A DNA stretch of 64,000 nt, from positions 3,162,001-3,226,000 of the forward strand of contig OY987234.1 in the NCBI GenBank assembly GCA_963920705.1, given 5' to 3'. The notes below the pieces were generated by a model. The model searched no databases. It saw only the letters and a program-made list of their open reading frames with translations, and had not been told where the DNA came from. Each line of letters opens with the position of its first letter. The first letter of the stretch is position 1. Of the stretch, positions 3,217 to 63,240 are shown one piece after another. The position numbers and the translations under genes were made by a program. Origin of the DNA: Odiellus spinosus. Lineage: Eukaryota; Arthropoda; Arachnida; Opiliones; Phalangiidae.

Positions 3217-3724
3217 GGTTAGATTATGTTAGTTTAGTTTTTCTGGTACAATAAATGCTGAAAAAGGAAATCCTTTAGAAGGTAGGGTTAAAAAAAGTTT
3301 TAGGAAAGAGTGGATTGCGGCGCGTCTAGGACATTGCGGTTATTGGGAAACGGCGCTAATGGGAAACGGCGCAAATGGGAAACGGCGCAAATGGGAAACT
3401 GGCGCAAATGGGAAACGGCGCGAATGGGAAACGGCGCAAATGGGAAACGGCGCAAATGGGAAACGGCGCAAATGGGAAAAGGCGCTAACGGGAACGGCGC
3501 TAATGGGAAACTGCGCTAATGGGAAACTGCGCTAACGCGAAACTGCGCTAATGGGATCGGCGCTAATGGGAAAATGCGCTAATGGAAAACTGCGCTAATG
3601 GGAGCGGCGCTAATAGGAACTGCGCTAATGGACATAATTCAAATTAGGTACGATTTTGAAAATCACATTTTATTGCGATAGTTCATCATCTACGATGATG
3701 TGAAAAAATACATTTTAAATAAAA

Positions 3725-23281: not shown

Positions 23282-23502
23282 TGGTAATGTCTTCGGGATG
23301 GTCCCATTTTTTAGACATAAAAAATTACACCTTTTTTAGGCCATTTCTTAGCTACGACGAGCCCTTTTTTTTAGGCCGTGAATAGAAATATGCCCAATTT
23401 TAAACGACGTCTTAACCCTTAACAAGAACCGGTTTGTAAAACGGCATTGGAGTGTTACAGAAACAGCGTTGTCGTGTCGTCGTCCAAGCGGTGTTTTGAA
23501 AC

Positions 23503-25536
23503 ATGCCGTCTCAAAAATGCTATTCTTGCAATAGTAAGATAAATAACAGTACTAGTCGGAAAATATTGCGATGTCGCTTAGCGGCGTACCTTTGTCGACG
23601 GAGGCAAGAAAACGGATATCCTCCTCTAGTTGGGAATGCACTTGGAAAGCGAGCTTGCGTAACGTGCACTTTGTCTTTCAATAAGTCACGTGCAGCTGGT
23701 CAAAGATCAGATACAGGTAGTGAAAGCGAGGAACTGGACGTCGCAACAGGATATGTTAAACTGAAGGTCAAGACCGCGAGAAGGAACAATAAAAAATGCA
23801 TGGTGTGAGACTCTCCTACTCGTAATCGGGCGAAGTTCAACGTGCGATTAGACATTTGGCTGAAGCGCCGTATATTTGTTCCCAAAGAATGCCGTCTTTG
23901 TCCGAACCACCTTGAAGATAATCTTTCGCTTCCCGAAGACATTACCAATGCAATTGTGCCATATACCGACACTGCCGACTTGTACCCTACTGAAATAGAG
24001 GAACTTCTTGCTGGACTTACCGACATGGTCAAAGAACAAGGTACGAGGGGATTCAGGCAGTTAATTACAAATGATCATGACTGTAAGGTGTTGACGTCGG
24101 TGAATTTGAGAGATTTTGGCACCGTTCACGACTGTATTGCTCCAAAATTGAAAAATAGTCACGTTCGATCGACCGAAACTGCACCGTGTATCTTGCTAAT
24201 GAAACTACGAATGAGTATATCTAACCCCTTAGCGTCAATATTGCGCGTTACGGAAAAGAACGTTACGGATATTATAAAATCTGTTACTTCGGCCATGATA
24301 ACCTTGTTCGTCCCACAACAACTTGGTACAGCCAATCTTAACCGGGCCGACCTTATTGTTAACCACCAGGCACCCGCGGCCGAACAACTCTTTGGAAACG
24401 CGCAAGGTGACTGTCTATTAGTCATTGTTGATGGAACGTACATTCGAGTCGAAAAGTCCAGAGACTACACGGTGCTACAAAAGTCGTTTTGCGTCCACAA
24501 AGGACAGCACATCCTTAAGCCGATGCTAATGGTAACCACAACCGGCTACATAATCGTTGTAATTGGACCTTATTATTCCAATGGTAAAAACAACGATGCT
24601 CAAATATTCAATCACGCGTTACGACAGCAGACAGAACTGAAATCCTTTTTCAAAAAGAACGATGTGGTGCTAGCAGACCGCGGTTTTAGGGACTCAGATG
24701 GTCTTCTACAAGACATGGGTTTAAACCTGCAAATGCCGTCTTTCCTCGCCAGGGGCGCTAAGCAAGTGGAAACCTCGGAAGTTAACCGTTCCAGAATGGT
24801 GACATACCTTCGGTGGCCGGTTGAAGTGCGCAATGGACATCTTCAAAGCGTCTTTGCTCTACTGCAACATCCCATACCATCAGGCTTGTTGTTGCACCTC
24901 ACCGACTTTCTTCAGATAGCCGCGTCTTTAATAAACGCCTTCCATCCGGACCTTAGACACAAAGGGAACTGGGAAGCCACGGTCCAAAGAATGAAAGCGT
25001 CACAAGGACAAATAAACGAGCTAAAGGAGAGAGTGGAACGAGATGGCCTTTCTAGGAAACCCACGAAATGGTTGAAACTGAACGAAATCCAGCTCGACGA
25101 TTTCCCAGTACTTACGGAAGAAGACGTACGGGATGTGGTAATGAGCGAATTTAAAACCAGGAGAGCGGAATCCTATGTCGGGCTAATAATCGAGCGATCC
25201 GGAACATTTACAGTGGAACTAAGTAAAGTTGAAAATAATCTCATTAGGGTTAAAGTTCCCGGACAATATTCAAAATCCACCGAGCATCAGGCTTTTATCC
25301 AGTATATTCCTAATGGTGTCGGTATGAACGCTATTCAGCGATGGTTTTGTAACTGCAAGGGCGGAGCATTAACGATAGGCACGTGCGCTCACGTGTGTAG
25401 TGTGATCTGGTATTTGGGTTTCCGTAGGCACGAACAAGAAGGTTCGTGGCCCCGATCTGCGGCGCGTGTTATATGCAAAGACGCGACGGACCTCGAAGAA
25501 GTATCAGACAATGAAAACTTTCCGGACGTTATATAA
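23503..25536 (+). CDS. DDE transposase (DDE_Tnp_4 / Harbinger-like clade) with SWIM zinc finger
   Basis: The frame is open from the ATG at 23503 to the stop at 25536 except for one in-frame TGA at 23806-23808. The N-terminus has CYSC and CVTC pairs. Just before the TGA stands CMV, and 30-odd residues later CRLCPNH, so the TGA appears to replace a cysteine of a CxxC pair. Counting from the ATG at 23842 (564 codons), the likely catalytic residues are D197 (VDGTYI), D279 (ADRGFRD) and E328 (RWPVE), with the DRGF and NGHLQ context of this transposase group. A SWIM finger follows: C503-x-C505-x9-C515-x-H517. SWIM modules bind DNA or protein. Transposases of this type cut and paste DNA in the nucleus. 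The gene lies in the right half of a large palindrome. Family placement (PIF/Harbinger, ISL2EU-like) is inference from motifs. With the TGA it would be made only as a shorter protein from 23842. Confidence 0.85.
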
Positions 25537-26148
25537 TACATTATGTAGCGGTATGTTCTTATAAATTCATTAAATCTTGCACAAGTATGTTGTATTCGTC
25601 TAAACTATATTGTGTTCGTGTTTTCTCTGGTTGGGAGAAATGCTACCAGGTGCGAAAACGTCATACTACACGGTTGTTTTATGTAGTATTAATAATTCTG
25701 CCAAGCCAATTTGATACATATTCCCTACCTTACAGGCCCACTTTTAGTGAAGCCCACAATCAGGCGATAGTGACTATTTTTAGCCTCGTTTTAGATAATA
25801 ATTTTAAGTCGTATAACTGAAATAGTACTTGTTGCTACACAACCAAAGTTTCTTCATTTTTGTATGCCATCCTGAAGAAGCTTTGTTCCAAGTTTCATTA
25901 GGATCTGAGGGGGTAAGGCTATCAAAATCAACATCTCAACTCGACATCGTCCCTATATTTTAACATTGAGGGCCTTTCTTCCAAGGTTAATAGTATTCGG
26001 TACAATGATTGCTTCGCTGTAAATTTTCCGATTTCGATGCAATAAGCACCACACCGTCGAAAAATCAACGAAATATTTTGGTGAGTGGATCTTTTTTTTC
26101 CCCCATTAAAATACCCAAAATTGAATAGAAACCGTACCCCCCTCTTTC

Positions 26149-26879: not shown

Positions 26880-27431
26880 CTTCGAAATGAGCTCGGAACT
26901 AATTTTAAATTCTTCGTATGCAATATTTATTAGCTCGGAACTAATTTTTATTTCTTCCTATGGAATATTTATTAGCTCGGAACTAATTTTTATTTCTTCA
27001 TATGCAATATTTATATCATTGTAACCAATGTTCCCGTGTAAAGATTACTTGTTCCCTCTTAAGGAATATTTACTTGCTTGTGACTAATTTTATAATGAAA
27101 TTAATATATTTGTTTATGTTTAATTTTATAATTAAATGAAAAATTTTTTTTCTGACTAATTCTATAATCAATAATATTTTTTGCCGATACTTAAGCACCA
27201 CCCATTGTATAAGTAAAATTCAATAAAAAATATTAAAAGAATCAAATAAAATTAATATTTAAGCCTAATATTTGCCTCCACTTGGAACGAACAAGATGGT
27301 CAAGCCCATAGGACATTGTAAAAGAGGCTGAAAAGAATTATGCTTTAGCAGGGGCTTGTTATGCATGCATAAACCTCTTTGAACAATTTGAATGGCGTTT
27401 CGAGATTCCTTTAAACACGAAGTTGCGTAAA

Positions 27432-29270
27432 GTTTTTCAAATCATGTTTTTCAAGTCATGTTTTTCTAGTCATGTTTTTCAAATCATGTTTTTCAAATCA
27501 TGTTTTTCAAATCATGTTTTTCAAATCATGTTTTTCAAGTCATGTTTTTCAAGTCATGTTTTTCTAGTCATGTTTTTCAAGTCACGTTTTTCTAGTCACG
27601 TTTTTCAAATCACGTTTTTCAAATCACGTTTTTCAAATCACGTTTTTCAAATCACGTTTTTCAAATCACGTTTTTCAAATCACGTTTTTCAAATCACGTT
27701 TTTCAAATCACGTTTTTCAAATCACGTTTTTCAAATCACGTTTTTCAAATCACGTTTTTCAAATCACGTTTTTCAAATCACGTTTTTCAAATCACGTTTT
27801 TCAAATCACGTTTTTCAAATCACGTTTTTCAAATCACGTTTTTCAAATCACGTTTTTCAAATCACCTTTTTCAAATCACCTTTTTCAAATCACCTTTTTC
27901 AAATCACCTTTTTCAAATCACCTTTTTCAAATCACCTTTTTCAAATCACCTTTTTCAAATCACCTTTTTCAAATCACCTTTTTCAAATCACCTTTTTCAA
28001 ATCACCTTTTTCAAATCACCTTTTTCAAATCACCTTTTTCAAATCACCTTTTTCAAATCACCTTTTTCAAATCACCTTTTTCAAATCACCTTTTTCAAAT
28101 CACCTTTTTCAAATCACCTTTTTCAAATCACCTTTTTCAAATCACCTTTTTCAAATCACCTTTTTCAAATCACCTTTTTCAAATCACCTTTTTCAAATCA
28201 CCTTTTTCAAATCACCTTTTTCAAATCACCTTTTTCAAATCACCTTTTTCAAATCACCTTTTTCAAATCACCTTTTTCAAATCACCTTTTTCAAATCACC
28301 TTTTTCAAATCACCTTTTTCAAATCACCTTTTTCAAATCACCTTTTTCAAATCACCTTTTTCAAATCACCTTTTTCAAATCACCTTTTTCAAATCACCTT
28401 TTTCAAATCACCTTGTTCAAATCACCTTGTTCAAATCACGTTGTTCAAATCACGTTGTTCAAATCACGTTGTTCAAATCACGTTGTTCAAATCACGTTGT
28501 TCAAATCACGTTGTTCAAATCACGTTGTTCAAATCACGTTGTTTCAAATCACGTTGTTTCAAATCACGTGTTTCAAATCACGTGTTTCAAATCACGTGTT
28601 TCAAATCACGTGTTTCAAATCACGTGTTTCAAATCACGTGTTTCAAATCACGTGTTTCAAATCACGTGTTTCAAATCACGTGTTTCAAATCACGTGTTTC
28701 AAATCACGTGTTTCAAATCACGTGTTTCAAATCACGTGTTTCAAATCACGTGTTTCAAATCACGTGTTTCAAATCACGTGTTTCAAATCACGTGCTTCAA
28801 ATCACGTGCTTCAAATCACGTGCTTCAAATCACGTGCTTCAAATCACGTGCTTCAAATCACGTGCTTCAAATCACGTGCTTCAAATCACGTGCTTCAAAT
28901 CACGTGCTTCAAATCACGTGCTTCAAATCACGTGCTTCAAATCACGTGCTTCAAATCACGTGCTTCAAATCACGTTTCTCAAATCACGTTTCTCAAATCA
29001 CGTTTCTCAAATCACGTTTCTCAAATCACGTTTCTCAAATCACGTTTCTCAAATCACGTTTCTCAAATCATGTTTCTCAAATCATGTTTTTCAAATCGTG
29101 TTTTTCAAATCGTGTTTCTCAAATCGTGTTTCTCAAATCGTGTTTCTCAAATCATGTTTCTCAAATCGTGTTTCTCAAATCGTGTTTTTCAAATCGTGTT
29201 TCTCAAATCATGTTTCTCAAATCGTGTTTCTCAAATCATGTTTTTCAAATCATGTTTTTCAACTTGGCTA
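27432..29270 (+). repeat. 14-bp minisatellite array, about 131 copies, in variant blocks
   Basis: Unit g-ttttt-caaatcac/t (14 bp). Variants lie in consecutive blocks and are not mixed: TGTTTTT at the start, CGTTTTT to about 27860, CCTTTTT to about 28405, CGTTGTT to about 28545, CGTGTTT to about 28790, CGTGCTT to about 28970, CGTTTCT to about 29065, then a mixed TGTTTCT/CGTGTTTCT tail. All three forward frames are open across most of it because the unit has no stop and 14 is not a multiple of 3. The predicted peptides (period 14, FFKSxFSNHVFQI) are an artefact of this. Confidence 0.97.
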
Positions 29271-30457: not shown

Positions 30458-32257
30458 CAAGCCCATAGGAATAGCTAGACCCATGACATTGTAAAAGAGG
30501 CTGAAAAGAACCTCTTTGAACAATTTGAATGGCGTTTCGAGATTCCTTTAAACACGAAGTTTTTCAAATCATGTTTTTCAAGTCATGTTTTTCAAGTCAT
30601 GTTTTTCAAATCATATTTTTCAAATCATATTTTTCAAATCATGTTTTTCAAATCATGTTTTTCAAATCATGTTTTTCAAATCATGTTTTTCAAATCATGT
30701 TTTTCAAATCATGTTTTTCAAATCATGTTTTTCAAATCATGTTTTTCAAATCATGTTTTTCAAATCATGTTTTTCAAATCATGTTTTTCAAATCATGTTT
30801 TTCAAATCATGTTTTTCAAATCATGTTTTTCAAATCATGTTTTTCAAATCTTGTTTTTCAAATCATGTTTTTCAAATCATGTTTTTCAAATCTTGTTTTT
30901 CAAATCTTGTTTTTCAAATCTTGTTTTTCAAATCTTGTTTTTCAAATCTTGTTTTTCAAATCTTGTTTTTCAAATCATGTTTTTCAAATCATGTTTTTCA
31001 AATCATGTTTTTCAAATCATGTTTTTCATATCATGTTTTTCAAATCATGTTTTTCAAATCATGTTTTTCATATCATGTTTTTCAAATCATGTTTTTCAAA
31101 TCATGTTTTTCAAATCATGTTTTTCAAATCATGTTTTTACCTGTGAACGCGTCTTCATATCTAATCTTTACTAATTTATCTTGGATACCCGTGTGAACGC
31201 GTTTATATCTAGTCCGTTTTATTTATCTTGGATACCCGTGTGAAAGCGACTTTATATCTTATCGTTATTAATTTATCTTGGATACCCGTGTGAAAGCGAC
31301 TTTATATCTTATCGTTATTAATTTATCTTGGATACCCGTGTGTACGCGGCTTCATATCTAATCTTAATTTTTCTTTGATACCAGTCTGAACGCGGATTTA
31401 TAGCTAATCTTTATTAATTTATCTGGGAACGCGGCTTTATATCTTATATTTATTCATTTTTAATTTAGATACCCGTGCGAACGGGCATTTTTGTATTATC
31501 TTTGTCATTTTAACTTGGATGCTCGTGCGAACGAGCCTTCACATCTATTCTATATTAAGTCATTTTATCTTGGATACCCTGTGAACACGACTTTATATCT
31601 AATCTTTATTAATTTTTAACTTGGATACTCGTGAAAACTCACCTTAATATCCAAAATTTATTAATTCATTTTATCTTGGACACCCGTGAAAACACGCCTT
31701 TATCTAATCAACCTATCAGAAAATATTGAATATCTTCGAAAATATCTTTTATATTAAATTTAAGTTTCAGCAACATTGGTTTTTAGATTAAGTTAAATCA
31801 TTTAATCAGTTTTAATTTTAATTTAATGGAATATTACGCTTCAATTCAGTAAAAGCTATAACCTCAGAAGGCTAAAATAGACTCGAATCCAAAAGATACT
31901 ATATAAGGCGTTCGTTTATCATTATAAACTAAGAAGCGAGTAACGGTTGCTGCTCTTCAATGAGCTATAGTGGATATACGTTTACAGCAAGGTAGAAGCT
32001 AATAACTGTATATTCTAATTTTATTGGAGAATTAAGCGCCGGGGTTGATGACGTCTTCTTCCGTCGTCACACACAGACAGAACCTCTCCGTGAACTAAAA
32101 GTTCACTCGGAGAGGTAAGAGGACGAAAGATTTTTCTATTCGATGACGTAATTCGTCTTCTTGTACAACGCCAACGCCGACGCCGCAGTGAATACAGTAC
32201 CTAGACCCCACTAGGGTTGGGTCTAGCTAAAAACGAGGACAAGGTAAACAAGATGGT
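30458..32257 (+). repeat. Higher-order satellite unit 2 (1,800 bp)
   Basis: Same order as unit 1: leader, 14-bp array (30559-31138), B block (31138-31711), C block (31712-32257) with TATA at 31900 and one hairpin copy (32082-32116). The C block is almost identical to that of unit 1, differing by few bases and lacking the extra hairpin. Confidence 0.85.
30559..31138 (+). repeat. 14-bp minisatellite array, about 41 copies
   Basis: Nearly all units are the TGTTTTTCAAATCA form. A block of CTTGTTTTT units lies at about 30845-30975 and a few 'catatcatg' units near the end. No CG or CC variants as in array 1, so arrays evolve separately. Confidence 0.95.
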
Positions 32258-34275
32258 TAAGCCCATAGGAATAGCTAGACCCATGACATTGTAAAAGAGG
32301 CTGAAAAGAACCTCTTTGAATAATCTGAATGGCGTTTCGAGATTCCTTTAAACACGAAGTTTTTCAAATCACGTTTTTCAAATCACGTTTTTCAAATCAC
32401 GTTTTTCAAATCACGTTTTTCAAATCACGTTTTTCAAATCACGTTTTTCAAATCACGTTTTTCAAATCACGTTTTTCAAATCACGTTTTTCAAATCACGT
32501 TTTTCAAATCACGTTTTTCAAATCACGTTTTTCAAATCACGTTTTTCAAATCACGTTTTTCAAATCACGTTTCTCAAATCACGTTTCTCAAATCACGTTT
32601 CTCAAATCACGTTTCTCAAATCACGTTTCTCAAATCACGTTTCTCAAATCACGTTTTTCAAATCACGTTTTTCAAATCACGTTTTTCAAATCACGTTTTT
32701 CAAATCACGTTTTTCAAATCACGTTTTTCAAATCACGTTTTTCAAATCACGTTTTTCAAATCACTTTTTTCAAATCACTTTTTTCAAATCACTTTTTTCA
32801 AATCACGTTTTTCAAATCACGTTTTTCAAATCACGTTTTTCAAATCACGTTTTTCAAATCACGTTTTTCAAATCACGTTTTTCAAATCACGTTTTTCAAA
32901 TCACGTTTTTCAAATCACGTTTTTCAAATCACGTTTTTCAAATCACGTTTTTTCAAATCACGTTTTTCAAATCACGTTTTTCAAATCACGTTTTTCAAAT
33001 CACGTTTTTCAAATCACGTTTTTCAAATCACGTTTTTCAAATCACGTTTTTCAAACCACGTTTTTCAACTTGGCTACCTGTGAACGCGTCTTTATATCTA
33101 ATCTTTATTAATTTATCTTGGATACCCGTGTGAAAGCGTCCTTATATCTAATCTTTATTAATTTATCTTGAATACCCGTGTGAAAGCGTCTTTATATCTA
33201 ATCTTTATTAATTTATATTGGATACCCGTGTGAAAGCGACTTTATATCTAATCTTTATTAATTTATATTGGATACCCGTGTGAAAGCGGCTTTATATCTA
33301 ATCTCAATTTTTCTTTGATACGTCTGAACGCGGATTTATATCTAATCTTTATTAATTTATCTTGGATACCCGTGTGAACGTGGCTTTATATCGAATATTT
33401 ATTAATTTTTAACTTTGATACCCGTGCGAACAGGCATTTATATATTATCTTTGTCATTTTATCTTGGATACTCGTGCAACGGGACTTAATATCTATTCTT
33501 TATTAAGTCATTTTTATTTTGGAAACGCGTCTTTATATCTATTCTTTATTAAGTCATTTTATCTTATTAAGTCATGTATCTTGGATACCCTAGGAACACG
33601 CTTTTATATCTAATCTTTATTAATTTTTACCTTGGATACCCTTGTGAAGGCACCTTTACATCTAATCTTTATTGTCTTATCTTGGATACCCGTGAAAACG
33701 CACCACAATATCTAAAATTTATTAATTCATTTTATCTTGAACACACGTGAAAACACGCTTTTATCTAATCAACCTATAAGAAAATCTTGAATATCTTCGA
33801 AAATATCTTTTATATTAAATTTAAGTTTCAGCAACATTGGTTTTTAGATTAAGTTTCAGCAACATTGGTTTTTAGATTAAGTTAAATCATTCAATCTGTT
33901 TTAATTTTAATTTAAATGAATATTACGTTTCAATTCAGTTAAAGCTATAACCTCAGAAGGCTAAAATAGACGCGAATCCAAAAGATACTATATAAGGCGC
34001 TCGTTTATCATTATAAACTAAGAAGCGAGTAAGGGTTGCTACTCTTCATGTACGTTTACAGCAAGGTAGAGGCTAATAACTGTATATTCGAATTTTACTG
34101 GAGAATCAAGCGCCGTCTTCTTTCGACGTCACAGACAAAACCTCTCCGCGAACTAAAAGTTCAGTCGGAGAGGTAAGAGGACGATAGATTTTTCTATTCG
34201 ATGACGTATTTCGTCTTCTTGTACAACGCGAACGCCAACGCGAACGCCGCAGTGAATACAGTACCTAGACCCCAC
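32258..34275 (+). repeat. Higher-order satellite unit 3
   Basis: Leader, 14-bp array (32359-33069), B block (33070-33774, the most expanded), C block (33775-34275) with TATA at 33989 and a hairpin copy (34140-34173). This unit is the most diverged of the three: it has an internal duplication near 33820-33880 and a shorter C-block middle. It ends at 'cctagaccccact', where the dispersed repeat resumes. Confidence 0.85.
32359..33069 (+). repeat. 14-bp minisatellite array, about 51 copies
   Basis: Nearly all units are CGTTTTTCAAATCA, with one block of CGTTTCT units (about 32572-32650), three CTTTTTT units near 32765-32810, and one 15-bp unit near 32950. Confidence 0.95.
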
Positions 34276-35982: not shown

Positions 35983-37840
35983 ATTAGATTTTCTTTTAAA
36001 ACGAAATTAAAATGTAATTAGATTTTCTTTTAAAACGAAATTAAAATGTAATTAGATTTTCTTTTAAAACGAAGTTTAAATATAATCACTATCTGGTGCG
36101 ATTTTGAGTTTCAAATTTCAAAACAACTGATTTTATTCACTCGGAAATATTTAAGAAAAAATATAACAGACGATTTTCTCCCATTGACGCTTAACATTTA
36201 ATTTCGCTTAATTATTTTTCAGGGAAAACGTGTATTGAACTGTTATTTTTCGGTATAACGCGAGTCCACTTTTTGTTTTCTTAATTTAACCCGAATTTCC
36301 ACGACTCGCAATTGAACGGAGGGTTAAAAATACTCGCTGGTTTATTGGAATGGGTATATGATCAAGGGAAATGTGTTTTTTAAAGCCCGTTTAAAGTAAC
36401 CTTCTTTTCTAACTTAGCAGACGACGCAAACCATAACAATTTGTACTTTCAAAGCTATATTGTGTGCGCAAGGGAAGAGAATTTCAAAGCGACGAATTTT
36501 AGAGCGGATAAGGTTTTTAGATAAATTTTAATACTTTCATTTTTCTTTTCATTAAAACCGTACAATGTAAATGATGATTTCCATAAGGGACCACTAATTA
36601 GTTATTAGGAGTTATAATAAAACATTATCCATGAATTAGGTTTGTTCGCTTGCAACCTAAATTAAAAATTAAAATATAAGGCATTTTTATTAACTTTAAA
36701 TACCTTGTATAAGCTAACAACATGAACGAATTGCCTCGACTAAAGTCGAGGAGTTGTAATAAAACATTATCCATGGATTAGGTTTGTTCGTTTGCAACCT
36801 AGATTAAAAATTAAAATATGGGGAATTTTTTCCCTTTAAATTCCTTGTATAAGCATTCATAAGCTAACATGAACGAATTGCCTCGACTAAAGACGAGGAG
36901 TTATAACATGGATTAGGTTTGTTCGTTTGCAACCTAAATTAAAAATTAAAATATGGGGATTTTTTATTCCCTTTAAATTCCTTGTATAAGCATTCATAAG
37001 CTAACATGAACGAATTGCCACGACTAAAGTCGAGGAGTTGCAATAAAACATTATCCATGGATTAGGTTTGTTCGTTTGCAACCTAGATTAAAAATTAAAA
37101 TATGGGGAATTTTTTCCCTTTAAATTCCTTGTATAAGCATTCATAAGCGAACATGAACGAATTGCCTTGACTAAAGTCGAGGAGTTGTAATAAAACATTA
37201 TCCGTGGATTATGTTTGTTCGTATCCATGGATTAGGTTTGTTCGTTTGCAACCTAGATTAAAAAATTAAATACGACGAATTTTTTCCCTTTAAATTCCTT
37301 GTATAAGCATTCATAAGCTAACATGAACGAATTGCCTCGACTAAAGTCGAGGAGTTACAATAAAACATTATCCATGGATTAGGTTTTTTCGTTTGCAACC
37401 TAAATTAAAAATTAAAATATGGTGAATTCCTTGTATAAGCATTCATAAGCTAACATGAACGAATTGCCTCGACTAAAGTCGAGGAGTTATAATAAAACAT
37501 TATCCATAGAAAATATTATCCAATTAAGGTATGAGATCAGATCATAGAACTTTGATTCTATGCCTAAAGCCAAAGCTAAATTAAGTAAATTTTTCTAACG
37601 AACGAAAAGTTTCGTTTTGTTTGACACGTAATCCCTGAAAAATAATTAAGCGAAATTTAATGTTAAGCGTCAATGGGAGAAAATCGTCTGTTGTTTTTTC
37701 TTAAATATATCCGAGTGAATAAAATCAGTTGTTTTGAAATTTGAAACTCTAAATCGTGCCAGATTGTGATTATATTTAAATTTCGTTTTAAAAGAAAATT
37801 TAATTGTATTTAAATTTAATGTTTTAAAAGAAAATTTAAT
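35983..37840. mobile_element. Foldback-like element with 34-bp subrepeats in the arms
   Basis: The left arm (35983-36235) and the right arm (about 37627-37840) are inverted copies. The outer part of each is made of tandem 'ttttcttttaaaacgaaatt' units (three left, two right). The inner part is a shared 'caaaacaactgattttattc' and 'gcttaacattt-aatttcgc' stretch. The middle carries a tandem array (36608-37500). No protein is encoded. Architecture is like the foldback class; the mobility is inferred. Confidence 0.65.
36608..37500 (+). repeat. Tandem array, about 130-170 bp unit, with a hairpin per unit
   Basis: Six to seven units begin 'gaggagttgtaataaaacat' (36608, 36750, 36896, 37032, 37181, 37351, 37481). 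Each ends in the palindrome CCTCGACTAAAGTCGAGG; three units carry one-base changes in it without a compensating change. Unit 5 contains an internal duplication of 'ggattaggtttgttcg'. Confidence 0.9.
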
Positions 37841-37981
37841 ATATGTCACTTTAGACATTCAAGGCCATAACATGTTTTTCTGGGTCTTTGTTCGGAAAGA
37901 CATTTTTGATATAATATCTGTCACTTCAGTCTAACACGAAAGTGTTAACTTCTATATTAAAAGACTAGCCCTTTAAAAAGT

Positions 37982-52910: not shown

Positions 52911-53622
52911 CTCGCTCCTTCTCTAGCAAGGAGTCACGAGTGTTACACGTAGCGTGCGCGAAAAAGGATGCGCATTAGAAAATACGTATCAGCAAAGGGG
53001 GGGGAAAAAAGGGGGAATTGAAAGCAGAAGCTGACTTTGAAACGACGCAAGTTATGACATGAGGTGGCCGTTCCTATCCATTCATCTTCCTAGCTCTGAC
53101 ATAGTCTCATGTTTTCTTTTCATGCAGTTCTATCTCTATCAAAAAAGGCTTAATTTTATGTCTCTTCTGCTGACCTCTCCGCCGGTCTCAAGGGTCAAAT
53201 ACAACGTTTTCGTTATTTAAAGTTACTTTTGGTTGCGTGATTTTTAGGTGATTTAACAGAACTTTTCGACGCTTCACTTTCAATATTATTCGACAAAACC
53301 ACTATCGACTCAAGAGTCAGAGTTTTCCTTTCATGCTGTTTATTAAAAAAGCTTCATTTTTTAAATCTGTCGCTGAACTCTCCGCCGGTCTCAATAATAG
53401 TTTGATTATTCTAGGGCTACTCTTCGTTGCGTGATTTTTCATGGTTTAATAGCTTTTTTCAAATTATATAGAGAAAAGTTAGAAAATTTGGTTGAGCTTG
53501 GTAGCCTGATTAGTATAGTATTTGTGGCAGTTTTAAAGAACGGGGTTGCAATTTCCAAATAGGAATAACATGGGGTTTCGGGTCCGTTGGCTTTTTCAGG
53601 AGCCGTTCATGCCGCAAGACAG
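52911..53622. other. Non-coding interval
   Basis: 53150-53230 and 53340-53460 share a diverged block (ctctccgccggtctcaa..gcgtgatttttaggt), a local duplication. No gene seen. The last nine bases (53614-53622) may be a diverged target duplication. Confidence 0.5.
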
Positions 53623-54535
53623 GGCTCCGTCAACTTGGCCCCGCCTTCCGCTAAAATCCAAATTTGCATAAACAGCCAATTTGCTCCCTTTTTGCTCCAC
53701 AATGCTCCATTAATATTAAAATTCGCTCCGCCGCCGTTAAGTCGTTCATTTGAATTTAATTGGGGGGGGGCAAGATAACATTTCGCCCCCCCACCGTGCT
53801 AAAAGCCCCTCGTGACCGGCCCATCCGATTGACCCCCTATTTCTCTATTATGCTCCACAAAAACCCAATTTTGCTCTCCCCCTGAACAGAGATAATTAAA
53901 TAATAGTCGGGGGGCCACGTTAACGTTTGCCCCCACAGTCCGCTGACCCCCATCGAATTTTAAATAGAGTTTCTCGCTGTAATGCTCTAATAATTCCACC
54001 CATTATACTAATTTGCGCCATACGCGTTAGTGAGTTAATTACGATTTAATTCGGGGGCCAAAGTAACAATTTGCCCCCCCCCCCCACTTGCCACTATTAA
54101 CGCGAAATTCGGTATTCATTAAGTTTATATAATGCTCCGTTGTTTCCACTTATCGAACATATTTGCACCATCCTTAATTAATAATTATTTAACTTTTAAT
54201 TGGCGGAGCCAAAATAACGTTCAGCCCCCGCCAACTTCGGCGTAGCGAAAAACCGAAATGCCCATCATTTAGGCCTCATTTTGCTCCACCAGAATTAATA
54301 AATATTTTAACTTGCTCCATTCGCATTCAAAAATTATTTAACTTTTAATTGGCGGGGCCAAAATAACGTTCAGCCCCCCCCCCCCCCCCCAAACTTCGGC
54401 TTAGCGAAAAACCGAAATGCCCATCATTTAGGCCTCATTTTGCTCCACCAGAAATTATAAGCATTTTAATTTGCTCCATTCTCAATCAATAATTATTTAA
54501 CTTTTAATTGGCGGGGCAAAACAGAAATACCCATG
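53623..54535 (+). repeat. Left terminal inverted repeat of the foldback/MULE element
   Basis: Matches 62263-61411 in reverse complement. The outer 160 bp are nearly unchanged between the arms except one or two bases and the poly-G/C length. The inner part is tandem: 'ggcggggccaaaataacgtt' followed by 'aaacttcggc-tagcgaaaa' and 'catttaggcctcattttgct' occurs about two and a half times. Confidence 0.9.
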
Positions 54536-54578
54536 CATTTACTTCATCCTGTTGGTTTAACGGTCTATGTGAAGGTTA

Positions 54579-54724
54579 CCTGGGAAAATTATGATCCTGC
54601 TCTATGAGATATGCAAATGGCTGAAAATAATTTTTATTTATCTAACTTGAACCTGTGAAAATTATGATCCTGCTATATGAGATATGTAAATGGCTGAAAA
54701 TAATTTTTATTTATCTAACTTGAT
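54579..54724. repeat. 73-bp tandem duplication
   Basis: Units 54579-54651 and 54652-54724, each 'aattatgatcctgct' through 'atttttatttatctaacttg', differing at about five positions. It lies just past the 3' end of the USP-like frame, in the transposon. Confidence 0.9.
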
Positions 54725-54867
54725 AATTTACTAAAAACAGAAGAACGACACAGAAGGTTGTTGGAGACTGTATTTAAAATGCCGTACTGAATTCAAGGGA
54801 TAATAATGTGTAGAGGTTTCGTCATAGTCGGGGTTTCATCGTCGTCGTGGTTTCGTCGTAGTTCGGG

Positions 54868-55460
54868 TTATGGAGATATTGTGTAGAACAAAACGTGAAT
54901 GCAAAACTCTCTTGTTTCTGGACATTCCTCGTACACATCTTTCATATCATTATAAATGACCCATCTGTTCCGGTGTTCCCTGGTCTAAGGGCGCAGCAGA
55001 CGTAATGTCCTAATCCTTTAGGGTTGTTTGCCCCAAGAAAAACCACACCTCCACGCAACTCGAAAGACTTTCCCTCTATTTTAATAGCTTTAGGGATTTG
55101 AGCCAATGGTACAACCATGCGAGTTTCACATTGTAAATCCTCTTCGAAAGATTTGAACTCCAAAAAAACTCCAAACTGGCATCTATGAATGTGTTGTTCT
55201 ATGGATTTTACGCTATCACAATTTTCGTGTAAGCATTCACTATGCCTGGGAAATGACTTGAAATACTCGTCTATTACTTCTTGTAATTTAGAAATTCTTA
55301 CTGGATTGCACTCCAAAGAAATTAAAGGGCGATTAATTGTCTTGGCAGATGATCGGCAATCTGCGGACAAGCACAATGTAGTTTCTGTACAAGAAACAAG
55401 GTCGGCGAACATCTTCGTGATCATCACCGCAACAGACTGTTGGCAAGAAACTTCTTCCAT
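54868..55460 (-). pseudogene. USP-like (ubiquitin-specific protease) C-terminal segment of the transposon protein
   Basis: The open part (55460-54942, 172 codons) shows paired cysteines (CLHENC..., CQF, CETR), a long middle with an 'LISLECNPV..' helix region, PLAQIPKAIKIEGKSFELRG then VVFLGANNPKGLGHYVC and ALRPGN. 'L.G.V......GHYVC..R' is the His box of USP (C19) cysteine proteases, which remove ubiquitin. Just after RPGNT the reading continues in the next frame with RWVIYNDMKDVYEEC and stops at 54868-54870; W..YND is the expected W..YDD end of a USP. So a one-base length change splits the last ~40 residues off. The catalytic Cys box was not found; a repeat inserted at 55499 cuts the upstream side. 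It lies on the same strand as, and downstream of, the transposase exons. Whether it was fused to the transposase is unproven. Confidence 0.65.
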
Positions 55461-55498
55461 ATCTTCTCCTGGAATACTTTTTCTTGTGGATATTTTTT

Positions 55499-56300
55499 AC
55501 CTCCCCGACTGAACTTTAGTTCAGGGGGAGGTTTTACACTGGTCGTGTCTGTGTGTGTGTCACTTCCTGTGTAAGCGGAAATCACGTGACCTAACTCGTG
55601 GAGCAAAAAGTCTAGAGACGTAATCATGCCAGCTTATCGTTCAATTCCGTTTAACGGGAATTACCTCCTTTAAGCGTGGCTGCCACACTGAGTTTCAAGT
55701 GTCGTGCAATTATATACAATAGGACGTCTCCAATTGTATATTATCGCATTCCACCATCCACTTTAGGTCAAACCTCGATGCTGGACAGTTGAAAGCGATT
55801 ATACGCAATGGGACGTCTCCCACTGTTATAATCACCTCCGACCATCCCCACACCAAGGTCCAACCTCTAGTGTCCGATCTCAGCGGGCCATATTAGCGAG
55901 GCGTTCCTCACTAATATAGTCCATATCAACCTTCCACTCCACTCATCTTCTCCCTCTACGGGTCTTTGTGGTGCAGTTACCGAATGCCTAGGGTTACGAT
56001 AAACGTCTAGACGTTGAGAAGGGGGGGTTTTCCCCAACTCTTCTCGGTTACTCGCTCGATGAATAAAGGTTCGCGAAAGCTATATATACCCCTTTTCCAT
56101 GCCCAAACTATTTTGGCCTTATGCCGCGATATCTTTTAGTGAATTGAAGCGTATAATGCATTTAAATTTTAATTTAATATCATAATATTGTTAAAATGAA
56201 TCTAATTAATAACGAAGCTGAAAAATCAATTAAAAATTCGAGATAGTTTAGAATATATTTAAGAAATTGTCCAAATTTTTTGGGAAATTTGACCGTTTAA
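55499..56300 (-). repeat. C-block-like repeat nested in the transposon, with hairpin copy 6
   Basis: It starts with the hairpin motif (55499-55531, acctccccgactgaacttta, mirrored arm following) and a GT run. Further right, 56100-56190, reads as the reverse complement of the satellite C blocks: 'tgaattgaagcgtataat' and a TATA-like 'tatatataccccttt' near 56080, with 'gttactcgctcg' (reverse of cgagcgagtaac). Between, 55700-55900 holds two related 'acgtctcc-a-tgt' segments. It appears to have interrupted the USP-like frame. Confidence 0.6.
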
Positions 56301-56474
56301 TACCATCTTGAGTTGGCAACACGCGCTAAGCTGTTTTCCATATACCATTTAGTCCAAAAAGCAAAGGTATAACGGGCAGTATAGGCTAAGGCTTGCTGCA
56401 AACTTGGGGTGGATTGAAGAATCTAAATAAAGGTGTATTTAATTTTAAGAAAACTGTAATTCCTTTTAGTTGCC

Positions 56475-56605
56475 ATGGCCCGCGCATACAGCGGCATGGT
56501 AGCAATTATATTTTTATTTCTTATCTGGTACCCGAAGGTTGGAATCCCCTGATCCTTTGTGTGTAGTTCTCGTTCGCGAGCCCATTGTGCCACGCGCGCG
56601 AGGCA
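56475..56605 (-). repeat. SINE-like sequence with tRNA-type boxes
   Basis: On the minus strand 'gcgtggcacaatgggctcgc' (A-box-like) is followed about 40 bp on by 'aggggattccaacc' (B-box-like), then an AT-rich tail. The acceptor end does not close. Probably a decayed tRNA-derived SINE. Confidence 0.4.
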
Positions 56606-56856
56606 CACATCTTTAACTATTTTTCACCGGGTTCGCTATCTTTGAAATTCTTCAAGGGATATCGCCCGCGTCCTTTTTCTTAATGGGTCGCTTCCCAGAA
56701 CTCAAGCTTTTAACTAGCTTTATTCGGGGGGGAAGCGAATACCCAAAAACTATATTCTATTTTAACTTCGCCTTGAAAAACTATTTTTAAGGAGGAGAAC
56801 TTTAGGACCCGAGTTTCGGACAGGACGTAGAAAAAGAACTTGGTCGCGAAATGGTG

Positions 56857-56880
56857 CCTCCGTGACATATCACGGAGGTA
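56857..56880. repeat. Short hairpin
   Basis: CCTCCGTGA-CATA-TCACGGAGG, a 9-bp perfect stem with a 4-nt loop, inside the transposon between the two coding regions. Confidence 0.8.
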
Positions 56881-57439
56881 CCGAAATTTCTAAATTATTT
56901 ATTTTTAAACTTATTTTAATTATATGTTTTAATCCGCGATATCGCGATTTAAACGAGGGACATGGTTTTATGTTGGACGTCATTTTTGACGCTTGTGCGC
57001 GTTTTGTGCGCAAAATAATATTTTCGCGCGCTTTCCTAACTCTCCGGTTAAATTCGTGAGTTCTTTAACAATTTATTCTATCAGGGGTACCAGCCTTCAA
57101 ATCTTCCGAATTTAATTTATACATGAGTGCACCATGGTTTTATTGTCTTTATATTATTATTATTATTATTTGTTTAGATTATTGTTTCATATATATATAT
57201 ATGGCCCATAGTGGCTTTAGGGGTTTAATCCCCAGTATAATTTATTAAACAGTATTATATAATCTATTTACCCGAGTCATACCTTTATTTCCTATACTAA
57301 TAATTATTTTTATCTATCTAACCAATGACAACCGCATGCTCCTGCGAAACCCTTTTTATTTAATAAATTTTAATCTTTTAATTTTTACCCCATTTCCCCT
57401 AGACTTGGCATTTTATATCTTTAGTGGGAGCAAAACGTT

Positions 57440-58119
57440 TCAAGCTTCGTATAAGAAAATGTGCCCACTTTGCTCAAATCGCTTAACTAAGCCTCCTGTC
57501 GCGTCGATCGAAAGTTTGGCAGTTTTTTTGTGTCTTCTATGGTAATCCCTATATACGTGTGTTTGAGAGTCCGACCAGTAGTGAACGTGGAATTTATCCA
57601 AAGAGACGTTACGGATAAAGTCGTCGTGTGGTCTCGCTCCCTTCATGGCGTACACTGCCCAAACAGGATCGTCGTCTACACGTCTGGCTTTTCTTTCCTT
57701 ACTAGCTGCAGCACGCATACAACTGGGTTTAGGGAGATTTGGTGGCTCCTAGTCCCCTAAACTCATAGTTTCACTCGCTTGTAGAGTACGAATGAGTTTC
57801 GCGGACATATTTCGTTCTAGCATCTTTTCGAGAACTGCGCTTTTAGCTATACCAGAGAGGGGCCTCTTAGACCCTAGTGGATGATTTGAATGATAATTCC
57901 CATCTAGCGTGCAGTGAATTAGAACTCTGGAAGTTCCTTCTGGCTCATCGTTTATAGTCCCAGAGAACTTGGCCAGGCAGATCTTACAAAATCCGAAAAA
58001 TGTGGCGTATGGGGCGCCATGATTTCTAATTTTTGCGCGCTTGAACGAAATGACGCAATGCAGACCAAGCTCTTTAATATGCGCAAAGAAATGATCATAG
58101 AGAATATGTGACCAGACAC
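57440..58119 (-). CDS. Transposase exon 2 (zinc-finger and start of the DDE domain)
   Basis: The acceptor attttag (AG at 58121-58120) opens the frame in phase 1, matching exon 1. It encodes VWSHILYDHFFAHIKELGLH, a zinc-finger-like CKIC followed ~22 residues later by HC..DGNYHSNH, then GSKRPLSG, a basic helical linker, EPPNLPKPSCMRAAASKE, VHYWSDSQTHVY and LSIDATGG...HIFLYEA. D of SIDATGG is the probable first catalytic aspartate of an RNase H-like transposase. One in-frame TAG interrupts it (57751-57749, after SLGD). The frame stops at 57440 and the rest of the catalytic domain was not found, as AT-rich DNA follows. Position between long TIRs and the zinc finger suggest a MULE/NOF-like transposase. 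The copy is therefore defective. Confidence 0.7.
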
Positions 58120-59226
58120 CTAAAATATTATTTTCATTAAAAACATGATATCGGTAATGTTATTGAAAAAGAATCACTTTTAATGAAAAAACCTACACAC
58201 TGCGGTTTAATTGCTACTCTTATTCCATTATAACACTTCAATTAATGGCAGAGTGAGCACATCCATCAAGTAATAACATTTTATATTTAAGATCCTAACC
58301 TATGAAATCTTAGGCGGGTAATGTGTCAAATGTTACTGCTCTGTTGGAGTGCTCGCTCGTGCTATATCTATGAAGCGGCCGAATAATAGATAGCAGGAAA
58401 GTAAAGGAGAGAACGAGTAAAGGTAGGAGTCTAGTAAAACTAATAATCTAATAAACAAGTCGCTCGTGGCACTATGATTTCAGTTTATCTTAAAAATTGG
58501 CAATATTTTCACTCAATAAATTAAACACATGATCACATGGTTCAATTAAGTTTTCATTAATGTAAACCGCCGAAATATAAATTTATGATAAAAATTTTAA
58601 ATTGTTTCCGGCATGCCTCTCAAATAGACAGGCCCCAATTTCCAGACCCATCTACAATATTATTTCACGTTTTTAGATCTGCAATGAGCAGACTTATGTG
58701 CCCTTCATCGTAGGATGCCAATTAGTGAAACTGAGGAATTCCTAGAAAATTCTCCCTCCCTTTCTTTCTCCCCGTTACTTTCCTTCTTGATGAAAGCATA
58801 AGTTTATAACTTATTTATGTTTTGTAGTTTTTTCGCGATTCATGTTTTACTATTATTTATTTTAAATTGTATTTTTAATAACGACTTATTCAATGCGAAA
58901 ACCCAAAACTGCTCAGAGTCCCTCATTATTATGCAAACGGTTTCTATTGGATGTAATTCAAATTAAGGGGCGAGTTTAAAGACGACACGTGACCCCGAAG
59001 TAGCCAATAAAAATTATTACAAAGAATATTTATTTTTGACTGGATTTTGGCACGTTTTGGCAGTTCATATTCTATGGTCGATCTTGCGACAAGGTGTCAT
59101 CAAGATGTGTAAAACAATAGAAGTGACATACTTATATAAGGTAAGTTATAAACCTATGATGAAAGCTATAGGAAAATGTTTAATCTTCCAAGCAATGAAG
59201 ATAATTTTGCCGGACATTAAACTTAC
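58120..59226 (-). other. Intron of the transposase gene
   Basis: It begins with a perfect donor GTAAGT (59226-59221) and ends attttag at 58120. Both flanking exons are in phase 1, joining as LVFPK-G-VWSHILYD. The interior is AT-rich with no gene on either strand that I can support; the plus-strand frame 59036-59332 overlaps exon 1 and has no domain. Confidence 0.7.
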
Positions 59227-59704
59227 CTTTTGGGAAGACCAGGTACTCTCGCTGAGACTTAATTCTCTCGAATTCTCCGCATTTATATACGGACTTTTGA
59301 GGAGCCATTCTTGCGTACTCTTGTTTAGTTAGTGTCATTGTAAAGCGCATAGTCTTTGCTGAGGCAGAATAATTGTCTTTGATGAAATCGGCATCATCGT
59401 CGTTGGGGCTTTCTTGATCAGACTCAATGTCAGAGGAATCGGACGAAACATCGTCGGCCCTATCTTCGGCATTTTGTTGAAAACCAAGGCTTTTCCAGCA
59501 GTCGTAATAGTTTTTGGAAACGATTGTATAAAGCGCGAGCCCCGTTTTTAGTTGATTCAATTCATTAGAAATTTTCAGCCAAATTGGGGCTGTTTTGCCA
59601 GTCACAGTTCTACTGCTGATGTGATAAATTGCATCTTTATGCGCGGAGAGCGCATCAATTACTGTCTTAATTTCTTTCTTGCTTGCACGCTTTTTCCCAA
59701 CCAT
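59227..59704 (-). CDS. Transposase exon 1 (N-terminal domain)
   Basis: ATG at 59704, 159 codons plus one base up to the donor at 59226. The N-terminus (KKRASKKEIKTVIDALSAHK) through 'APIWLKISNELNQLKTGLAL' and 'VSKNYYDCWKSL' looks like a helical Myb/SANT or MADF-type DNA-binding module, with three predicted helices and conserved W/Y spacing. An acidic serine-rich linker follows (SSDSSDIESDQESPNDDDAD), then a basic-aromatic stretch TLTKQEYARM and KSQREYLVFPK, which leads into exon 2. Without the splice the frame would read on to a stop at 59180. A role in binding the transposon ends is likely by position, but not shown. Confidence 0.7.
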
Positions 59705-59779
59705 ATTCTAGAAAAGTTGGAAATTAATTATTTGTGCTCATGTATGGCGTTTCGAAGAAACCCCCTCCCCCTATAACTC

Positions 59780-60322
59780 ATTTTAAAGGCGTTCAAATTG
59801 AGTGTGAGGGGAAGTCAATAATAATAATCTAAGCTTGTTCTAAGGAATTCATATATACACAGATGTATATTAGTTATCTGCCCCATATTAAAAGGTTACG
59901 TGTAGATTATGTAACACATTTTTATATAGGCTTAACGTTTAAACTACAACTTCTGATTTACTCCTGTCATTAACATTTTTATTTCAAAATAATATTTGAG
60001 AACGTGCTGGCTGGCATTAAACCCTCGCGAATAAGTAACATTAGGAAACGAGCGAAAAAGTAAAAAGGCTCAAAAACACCTGCAAACTCATTCTCCAACC
60101 TCGACTGTTCGACAATTCTGACCAGCGACATTAGGATAGAAACATAAGAGGTTTACCTCACAAACATCTGAAAAATCACTTTTCGGCCCGAACGAAGAAA
60201 GAGGTTCGATCAACATATAATAGATGATAATATAAAATAACTTGTTCCCAACCTTGAAAAAAGGTACATTTCCCCTTAGAAACGGTTTCTATTTTACGGT
60301 TTGCCTTCTTCTAGCTAATCAG
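59780..60322. other. Non-coding interval inside the transposon
   Basis: The region upstream of the transposase start; no promoter box could be called with confidence. No other gene seen. Confidence 0.4.
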
Positions 60323-60519
60323 GGTTTATTTAGGAAGATTACACGGACGAGGGCGGAAACGGATGAAAATGGCGGTGTTTGTGGGCTGACGTCAGTGGAA
60401 AGTATCAGGTGGTTATGTCCTTGGCTGTTAGGGATCACATGACACTTTTTACTGACGTCAGCCCTTAAACGCATTTTCTTCCACTTCCTGTTCGTTTGCA
60501 TAACCTTCCTAAATAAACC
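60323..60519. mobile_element. MITE nested in the foldback/MULE element
   Basis: A 15-bp perfect TIR (GGTTTATTTAGGAAG at 60323; mirror at 60505-60519) with further partial pairing inward, and 'gctgacgtcag' at two mirrored places inside. 197 bp, no coding capacity, no clear target duplication. Confidence 0.75.
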
Positions 60520-61410
60520 ATGTCGCTATTGAGATGTGAAACTCCCACCAATACTTTTCCCTTTAAATGATTCATGCTCAAAGCGAATTGGTTTAGCCTA
60601 GAACACATATGATATAAGAAATATAGGTAGGTTCCGCGCCCGCCATAACGCCATTAGGCTGACACGTAATGCTATCGCGCCATATAGGAGCCTAATGGCC
60701 GCCTACTGGCCATTCTTAATATGTCATTTAAACCGCAAAGTTTGGTTTTACAATCATTGTGGCAATTTCATGTTATAAAACCAAGGATGATCTAACTGTT
60801 AAATGTTTTTGCTAATAATGGCCGATACGTTTTCGGAAAGGTGCCCTTAAAAAGAAACAGGGCTAACCACTGATGAAAAATGTGTACGATTTAGTAGGGA
60901 ATTATAAACTAAAGGGGGTAAAAGCCTTCCTCCCAAAGTTGCCAACCATTTGTGAGTGCAAACTGAAGTAGAGAGAAAGGCTAGCAGTTCTGAAATTTGA
61001 ACTGATCCGTTCTGAACTGCGCTCACAAGCTCCTGGCAACCCTGCAATGAAGGGAAAGCTGGGCCCTTTTAGTGAAAACTATGTATAGCAAACAATTAAG
61101 GATGACGTAACTATATTGGGATTTTCTAATTAAATAATTTAAGTCAATTGTACACCATATTACGAGAGTGGTTAAGCTTTCAAATAATAAAATGTTTACT
61201 CACTTGATTTAATAAATATCCTGTATAATTTTCACTTTCAAATTAAAGCTGGGAAACCAAAAACATACGAATTCGATTGTCTTTCACCACATCTTTGGCA
61301 CCGCGTAACCTCAATTTTCAAAGTAAAGCGCGATCACGAGTATTTTCTTATACCACGTACGCACCGTTAGTATACATGACGAGAAAAGCAAGCGTTTTTC
61401 AAACTGCATA
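60520..61410. other. Non-coding interval inside the transposon
   Basis: Short inverted motifs at 60640-60710 ('gccattaggct' / 'agcctaatggc'). The minus-strand frame 60847-61047 has no domain. Confidence 0.4.
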
Positions 61411-62263
61411 GTGAGTATGGAGCAAATTAAAATACTTATAATTTCTGGTGGAGCAAAATGAGGCCAACATAATGGGCATTTCGGTTTTTCGCTACGCCGA
61501 AGTTTGGGGGGGGGGGGCTGAACCTTATTTAGGCCCCGCCAATTAAAAGTTAAATAATTATTAAATGAGAATGGAGCAAATTAAAATACTCGTTAATTCT
61601 GGTGGAGCAAAATGAGGCCAAAATAATGGGCATTTCGCTTTTTCGCTACGCCGAAGTTTGGGGGGCTGAACGTTATTTTGGCCCCGCCAATTAAAAGTTA
61701 AATAATTATTAATTAAGGATGGTGCAAATATGTTCGATAAGTGGAAACAACGGAGCATTATTTAAACTTAATGGGTACCGAGTTTCGCGTTAATAGTGGC
61801 AAGTGGGGGGCAAATTGTTACTTTGGCCCCCGAATTAAATCGTAGTTAACTCACTAACGCGTATGGCACAAATTAGTATAATGGGTGGAATTATTAGAGC
61901 ATTACAGCGAGAAACTCTATTTAAATTTTGATGGGGGTCAGTGGACTGTGGGGGCAAACGTTAACTTGCCCCCCCCCCCCGACTATTATCTCTGTTCAGG
62001 GGGAGAGCAAAATTGGGTTTTTGTGGAGCATAATAGAGCAATAGGGGGTCAATCGTATGGGCCGGTCACGAGGGGCTTTTAGCACGGTGGGGGGGCGAAA
62101 TGTTATCTTGCCCCCCCCCCCCCCAATTAAAATCAAATAAACGACTTAACGGCGGCGGAGCGAATTTTAATATTATCGGAGCATTGTAGAGCAAAAAGGG
62201 AGCAAATTGGCTGGCTATGCAAATTTGGATTTTAGCGGAAGGCGGGGCCAAGTTGACGGAGCC
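61411..62263 (-). repeat. Right terminal inverted repeat of the foldback/MULE element
   Basis: Mirror of 53623-54535. It contains two tandem units (about 61430-61555 and 61570-61690), each 'tggagcaaattaaaatact', 'ggtggagcaaaatgaggcc' and 'tacgccgaagtttgggggg'. Poly-G/C runs at 61507, 61970 and 62111 differ in length between arms. Confidence 0.9.
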
Positions 62264-63240
62264 GCAAGGGCGGCGAGCCATCGCCGTCGGGACTATATAG
62301 ATTGCCGTCGAATTTCGATAGACGGGCTGGTCCGATACTGCCGGCTAAACACGACGTAGTATAGTTCGGCCGATCAATTTTGGGGGGTGGTTCACTCATT
62401 AACATGGGGTTCTATGAGACGATTGATATTGTCAGCCTGACACTGAGCACGGGCGACCGTCGATTTCAATGGGCTTATCATTTAACGCGGGGGGTCTATG
62501 GGAGAGCGATTTTTGTCGGGCTTCAAACGTGCGGCGATAGGAAGAGCAAAGCGGCTCTCGCTTATCAATATAAATATTCTGGTTTTGGGTTTATTTTTAT
62601 TTGTCGTAGTACGAAATCGCGATTGAAAAGCGGGTGGAAAAATTGACGATTTCAATTGTTTATCACTCCGAAATATATAGTTTTATTTACATACTCCAAA
62701 TCAATCCTCCCCATGTTATTTTGAATGAAAGGCGGCCCAACTTTTTAAAGATAAGCGTTCCTATAACTTGTATGTATTGTGTATATAAAATCCGGAAACT
62801 AATTTGGATGCTGAAAAAGAGTGTAACATATGGTATAGACCTACCTATTCAGAATAACATGGATATCCCTATTCCAAAGAGATGTGTTTTAGAAGCGATT
62901 TAATAGCGAGTATATATTGAAAGAATTGGCGTACTATATTATTGAAACGGGTGAAAGTGGTACGTTCGTTTTCAAACTTCCGTTTCCATATGGCGAACTT
63001 AGCTTCAAGGACCGTCGATTAAATGGTTGGGTTTCTCGTAATATTTTCGCTCTCAATTGGGGGCGGAGCGACGGAGAATACGAATTCAAGGACCTCGCCA
63101 AGACGCCAACATAATAAGTGGGATATCGGGGAAACCGATATTTTCTGGATGAAAGGACTAGAGAAGTCAATATTTCTCTCGAAATTCATCGGTGACGTCG
63201 TGGGAAACGTGGAATCTCTCGGTTGCCCTAAATAAAGTGG
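62264..63240 (+). other. Open frames of unknown nature
   Basis: Three short forward frames (62380-62646, 62634-62903, 62917-63114; 88, 89 and 65 codons) follow one another on the plus strand in different frames. The first contains STGDRRFQWAYHLTRGVYG and the last GELSFKDRRLNGWVSRNIF. I recognise no family. A decayed gene or repeat is possible, and coding is not shown. Confidence 0.25.

Follow-up and report, generated by a model that had tools for sequence, protein, structure and literature searches.

A foldback transposon family in the arachnid Odiellus spinosus with a likely driver gene that joins a putative DDE transposase to a USP-type peptidase

We analysed a 64-kb stretch of the Odiellus spinosus genome (C12:3162001-3226000; hereafter, the window, with positions counted from its first letter) and searched 443 Mb of the same genome for relatives of an 8.6-kb element near its right end. 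The element consists of two long inverted arms that enclose the remains of a large spliced gene on the minus strand:

53614..53622, plus strand: left target-site duplication, GCAAGACAG; a matching 9-mer (8/9) occurs once at the element-free paralogue C6:3903341
53623..54521, plus strand: left foldback arm (terminal inverted repeat, TIR), from self-alignment; begins GGCTCCGTCAACTTGGCCCC; inner tandem of ~159 bp, 2.2 copies
53767..54376, plus strand: five near-palindromic sites GGGSCAANNTAACNNTTNSCCC at 53767, 53912, 54055, 54206 and 54355, from a pattern search
54877..55496 (start approximate), minus strand: remnant of exon 4 that covers the 3' part of the USP-type peptidase
55494..57442, no strand: non-gene sequence that replaces the remainder of exon 2, the whole of exon 3 and the 5' portion of exon 4
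57443..58119, minus strand: exon 2 remnant with a Zn-type pair, the first putative catalytic D (SIDATGG) and a TAG at 57749-57751
58120..59226, minus strand: intron 1, 1107 nt, GTAAGT...ATTTTAG, phase 1; homologous boundary in the C7 copy (see below)
59227..59704, minus strand: exon 1, starting MVGKKRAS...
61412..62263, minus strand: right foldback arm (TIR), from self-alignment; inner tandem of ~154 bp, 2.1 copies
61663..62114, minus strand: four near-palindromic sites at 61663, 61808, 61951 and 62093, from a pattern search
62264..62272, plus strand: right target-site duplication, decayed, GCAAGGGCG

The arms, which the first-pass annotation of this DNA had described as ~0.9-kb inverted repeats with internal tandem units, align in inverted orientation at 92.0% identity over 872 columns (1258 bits), far above the best score of 28.3 bits obtained in 100 shuffles in blocks of two bases. 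The outer ends of both, read inward, are GGCTCCGTCAACTTGGCCCC, and the inner part of each comprises about two units of the 154-159-bp tandem. The 9-mers that flank the element, GCAAGACAG and GCAAGGGCG, are identical at 6 of 9 positions. The flanks, joined without the element and one 9-mer, yielded 35 genome matches, namely, their own two halves, 13 element-free places that span the junction at 69-94% identity (the best, at 94%, being C12:3259736-3260038), and 20 partial matches; gaps of up to ~30 bases, at unspecified positions, interrupt several of the 13. A pattern search pinpointed one element-free place, C6:3903341, with a single 9-mer that is 8/9 like the left duplication. Since sequences without the element match the joined flanks at other places in the genome, the 8.6-kb unit entered its site as one piece. 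The possibility that the arms are a product of chance or an assembly artefact is ruled out by the shuffles, the empty sites and the many copies.

The splice junction between the first two exons that had been proposed from the window alone holds: exon 1 ends at 59227 with CCAAAAG/GTAAGT and exon 2 starts at 58119 with ATTTTAG/GTGTCTGG, so that the joined product reads LVFPK-G-VW in phase. The boundary and its phase can likewise be placed in the other subfamily of the family, although the introns of the two have ceased to align. The rest of the gene is ruined. An in-frame TAG (57749-57751) interrupts exon 2, which stops at 57443, so that the second D, the DxxH motif and the E are gone; part of the sequence that follows (55494-56434) matches, in inverted orientation and at 83% identity, a stretch of the C84b copy. 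The exon 4 remnant retains the His box GLGHYVCC and has lost the Cys box, and its final ~32 amino acids (aa) lie in another frame. Given the stop in exon 2, the loss of the second half of the DDE core and the cut in the peptidase, the window copy is a dead, old member of the second subfamily. Thus, a transposase-like gene does lie between the arms, as first proposed, but this copy no longer works, and the gene, judging from its relative on C7, has at least four exons.

The C7 copy (C7:12543801-12554542; 10,742 bp) is flanked by a perfect 9-bp duplication, CAGCGCTTG, and its arms are 98.7% identical across 1,174 bp. Four exons were inferred for its gene by GT/AG, phase and homology limits:

C7:12551088-12550590, minus strand: exon 1
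C7:12548855-12547110, minus strand: exon 2
C7:12546691-12546507, minus strand: exon 3
C7:12546364-12545246, minus strand: exon 4

Joined in phase, these exons encode a stop-free protein of 1182 aa. When the C7 and window copies are compared with blastn, only the arms (~70%) and the exons align, and the introns do not. The ratio of nonsynonymous to synonymous distances (dN/dS) between these two copies is 0.185 in exon 1 (157 codons), 0.053 in exon 2 (225 codons) and 0.034 in exon 4 (174 codons), and that between C7 and C84b is 0.173 in exon 1 (156 codons) and 0.065 in exon 2 (564 codons). The comparison covers exons 1, 2 and 4, not exon 3, and omits stop codons, and with dS of 1.5-4.7, that is, at saturation, the ratios are rough. 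These values show that the protein, with its peptidase part, has long been under constraint.

Exon 2 of the C7 protein contains a Zn-type pair (CKIC at residue 211), followed by putative DDE motifs, SIDATGG (D372), VVSDMS (D445) and APVESS (E700), with a putative DxxH motif, CDIAH (D496-H499), between D445 and E700; a DDE core with C/DxxH between the second D and the E is characteristic of the Mutator superfamily (MULE). Read in this way, exon 2 would encode a DDE-type catalytic core. A zinc finger, CIAC...HECTVCK...ICNHC, stretches across exons 3 and 4 and is followed in exon 4 by three boxes, NTCAFDS (from residue 917), GHYV (from 1138, within GLGHYVCC) and WVIYDD (from 1151), which presumably are the Cys, His and Asp boxes of a USP (C19) peptidase and which are conserved in the C1 copy. 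The protein that the first-pass annotation called a transposase is, then, a putative transposase that also bears a USP-type peptidase and, ahead of it, a zinc finger. The whole-genome search with the peptidase gave 11 matches, all inside the five gene-bearing elements; at that sensitivity, it reveals no close host USP gene and hence no sign of recent capture. Neither the exon 2 alignment nor the peptidase found a relative in viral contigs. AlphaFold models of two window fragments were of low confidence (mean pLDDT 43.0 and 45.1) and nothing was drawn from either; a fold search with the second gave no match at E <= 0.001.

Arm searches returned at least 88 and at least 48 matching pieces across the genome. 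We examined 19 arm pairs, five of them gene-bearing (the window copy, C1, C84a, C84b and C7) and 14 gene-less (L009-L022), leaving out about eight further places, mostly single arms or fragments. The arms range from ~0.7 to 1.7 kb in the 19 elements, and the tandem unit is present in 2.1-9.3 copies in the 14 elements scanned, with unequal numbers in the two arms of several; the tandem scan reported no ~149-bp tandem in one arm each of C1, C84b and L019. All five gene loci found with the exon 2 and exon 4 proteins as queries, rather than with exon 1 alone, lie between arms. The first-pass annotation had treated arms and gene as parts of one element that should not turn up separately: 14 of the 19 arm pairs do lack the gene, as non-autonomous copies would, and the gene was not found without the arms.

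Perfect 9-bp duplications flank 10 of the 19 elements (L009-L012, L014-L017, L019 and C7). Imperfect ones are seen at L021 (8/9), L013 (7/9), and L020 and the window copy (6/9 each), and the flanks of L018 share a 7-mer offset by two; comparison of the flanks of C84a, C84b and C1 revealed no duplication, and the right end of L022 is truncated, so that its duplication is not measurable. Three gene-less copies, L010, L011 and L012, are identical across 5,521 bp, and a single base separates L009 from each of them; these four copies occupy four sites with four different 9-bp duplications. Because such identity is found at different sites with different duplications, these copies moved very recently. 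The interiors of the gene-less copies have in common with that of C7 only ~50-base pieces of the arm unit.

Several features of individual copies deserve mention. The interior of L009 (1447-4077 from the element start) is made of direct and inverted ~0.4-0.9-kb repeats, and the longest stop-to-stop frame in the whole element is 104 aa. A stretch of 144 kb (C7:12458973-12602676) holds three family members, with the gene-bearing copy in the middle and a gene-less one on either side, possibly as a result of local hopping. C84:528643-555858 and C84:1767392-1784269 form an inverted segmental duplication that includes a gene-bearing copy with its flanks, the long pieces being 97-99.8% identical and one 95.6% identical. 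Independent insertion of C84a and C84b is ruled out because a piece with 300 flank bases is common to both at 99.75% identity; thus, the two represent one segmental duplication.

A near-palindrome, GGGGSCAANNTAACNNTTGSCCCC, is repeated along the arms of both subfamilies in the five elements compared (the window copy, C1, C7, L009 and L013), mostly at steps of 144-149 bp, with some gaps of 130-159. Its distances from the element end match between copies (286, 431 and 577 in C7; 284-287, 431-433 and 579 in the window copy), and the terminus itself resembles its right half. In the left arm of the window copy, a gap of 301 covers a site that was found by the separate pattern search, and the last match, at 891, is poor. 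With up to 2 mismatches, the pattern occurs 9 times in the 64 kb, always inside the two arms, against 0.03 occurrences expected in the 64 kb; the pattern was picked from these arms, and this expectation, therefore, measures confinement, not discovery. In the outer 530 bp of both arms of seven elements, agreement between the subfamilies is 83% at site columns compared with 62% at the other arm columns, in a chosen site set that includes the terminus and with conserved stretches also outside the sites (~217 and ~396-424 in C7). The arm repeats of Galileo hold transposase-binding sites (PMC3688188), and by this analogy, the near-palindromic sites are probably transposase-binding sites as well. 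The ~147-bp step is close to 14 helical turns or to the length of a nucleosome, a correspondence that is only suggestive.

Taken together, these observations make it highly probable that we are dealing with a family of cut-and-paste foldback DNA transposons that encompasses a transposase-peptidase driver gene, is recognized through its arms and includes gene-less copies mobilised in trans. Under this scenario, the driver gene would yield one ~1180-aa protein with an N-terminal region, the Zn-type pair, the DDE core with DxxH, the zinc finger and the USP-type peptidase. The transposase would bind the terminus and the ~147-bp ladder of near-palindromic sites along each arm, pair the two arms, cut, and insert the element into a 9-bp staggered target. 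With recognition residing in the arms, gene-less copies could be mobilised in trans, and arm length would drift via gain and loss of ~149-bp units. Selection maintains the peptidase, whose probable task is either to deubiquitinate the transposase or repair factors or to trim the fusion protein. We infer splicing, ladder binding, catalysis and the role of the peptidase, and likewise the part of the C7 copy, or of a similar one, in driving the rest; the family thus comes with its likely driver. A bolder version, in which the system is currently active and its autonomous driver identified, the transposase-deubiquitinase fusion reads a nucleosome-length ladder of palindromic sites, arm length tunes the mobilisation of gene-less copies and the USP domain serves to shield the transposase or to bring in repair, appears doubtful to us.

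A number of observations weigh against the favoured scenario. The young gene-less copies share only the arms with C7, at ~98% rather than 100%, and may thus owe their movement to a different copy that escaped notice. The empty-site search for L012 was negative: apart from the two flanks of that element, it returned just the many copies of a repeat that lies where the right flank ends distally. In 9 of the 19 elements, the duplication is missing, imperfect or beyond measurement. The C7 splicing is predicted from the sequence. The DDE assignment is based on motifs in a few related sequences, with a long D2-E gap of 254 residues and, in the aligned C84 copy, Q in place of the H of DxxH; no transposase family was matched by exon 2 in the Pfam scans or in NCBIfam, where the single hit (E 0.96) is a chance match. 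The Pfam UCH profile matches the peptidase at E 7.5e-5 with 22.9 bits, just under the cut-off of 23.9 (with an E limit of 1, two of three copies are matched), and searches of solved structures, whether with exon 2, with the peptidase or with an alignment of the latter, recovered no relative and no USP, the peptidase alone giving one chance match (E 0.22).

Could the gene be passenger cargo, a captured host gene, in a family moved by other transposases such as the MULEs of this genome? Such transposases are at hand (72 matches to the Pfam MULE profile PF10551 elsewhere in the genome) and 14 of the 19 elements do lack the gene. However, the same gene, at saturated synonymous distance and under purifying selection, is present in both arm subfamilies, it is found nowhere outside the arms, and it has a DDE/DxxH-like layout, so that we consider cargo status quite improbable. 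Membership in the FB-NOF lineage of Drosophila foldback elements is a possibility that falls slightly short of an even bet in our judgment. FB-NOF combines foldback arms built of tandem units with 9-bp duplications and a single very large gene, and this resemblance would favour kinship. FB-NOF is reportedly called non-autonomous in the title of Badal et al. 2013, whereas an uninterrupted gene-bearing copy exists here.

Nearly as easy to accept as to reject is a conventional Mutator-superfamily element (MULE or Phantom) whose arms grew secondarily, an option we nonetheless slightly disfavour. It would account for the 9-bp duplications (8-11 bp, mostly 9 bp, in that superfamily), the DxxH motif and the long TIRs, and MULE transposases inside foldback arms are known from Tm1 and FARE (PMC3169594). 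Against it, PF10551 has its 72 matches elsewhere and none at the five gene loci, FLYWCH, SWIM and the other Pfam mutator profiles match none of the gene pieces, and the peptidase is of the USP type, compared with the OTU and Ulp1 types reported in other transposons (PMC2836005, PMC6446971). Structurally, the family belongs to the foldback class, given its long inverted arms, variable tandem units and distinct sites with duplications. Of the initial foldback/MULE-like label, the foldback half stands; because PF10551 misses the gene loci, we do not file the family as MULE, and membership is plausible but unproven.

Foldback-type elements with transposases are already known, namely, Tm1, FARE and Galileo (PMC3169594), so the initial view that arms together with a gene are unusual was too strong. 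Tm1 (Mutator/Foldback, Meloidogyne) comes close to the present family, with composite arms that contain repeated motifs, 9-bp duplications, one type that carries a spliced transposase, and gene-less types (PMC3169594). However, Tm1-A is 2.6 kb long and encodes a 496-aa protein with Pfam FLYWCH and MULE domains, neither of which is found in the 1182-aa protein of the 10.7-kb C7 element; no two Tm1 copies are identical (PMC3169594), in contrast to the identical young copies here, and a USP-type peptidase is added here. Galileo (P superfamily) resembles the family in that its arms can exceed 1 kb and contain tandem repeats with extra transposase-binding sites, but its transposase has a THAP domain (PMC3688188), and THAP is absent among our Pfam matches at E up to 10. 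Tetris of D. virilis similarly combines a flanking domain with tandem units in its arms and 8-10-bp duplications but, unlike for the family here, no transposase-coding copy of it was found (PMC4079207). With respect to the fusion, Ginger1 joins a transposase to a ubiquitin/SUMO-type cysteine peptidase but of the OTU or Ulp1 kind, with TIRs of 44-270 bp (PMC2836005). In the literature searched, a C19 peptidase joined to a transposase surfaced once, in a T. vaginalis transposase_11-C19 protein, which has a different transposase type (PMC2836005); among the titles and openings of abstracts listed, no foldback transposase with a USP-type peptidase surfaced. We have seen no description of the peptidase fusion in a foldback element, of the regular ladder, or of identical gene-less copies alongside an uninterrupted one.

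A single genome holds uninterrupted and decayed gene-bearing copies together with identical young gene-less ones, and which copy moves which is therefore directly testable. Some foldback families, Tetris among them, have yielded gene-less copies alone (PMC4079207). The regular site ladder offers a concrete reason for long arms, and with the USP-type domain conserved, a ubiquitin role in transposition becomes testable.

Elsewhere in the window, where no tRNA genes were found, other repeats are abundant. A ~5.1-kb near-perfect palindrome (21029-26148; complementary arms of 1665 nt, 99%; 240 nt, 99%; 183 nt, 100%; and 116 nt, 98%) lies between inverted pairs of 36-bp and 42-bp tandem arrays (10621-11014 and 26890-27168) that are 77-85% complementary and separated by 16 kb; this arrangement may be another foldback element of a different kind. 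A third inverted array pair (35983-37844; 139 nt, 88%, and 87 nt, 89%) surrounds 137-147-bp tandem units, and inverted 15-16-bp minisatellites, ATTAGCGCAGTTTCCC and TGGGAAACGGCGCTAA (2436-3631; 157 nt, 80% complementary), form a small foldback-like structure. A 14-bp satellite, GTTTTTCAAATCAC/T, is present in about 131, 41 and 51 copies at 27432-29262, 30559-31138 and 32359-33068, respectively, each block being followed by ~50-bp tandem units.

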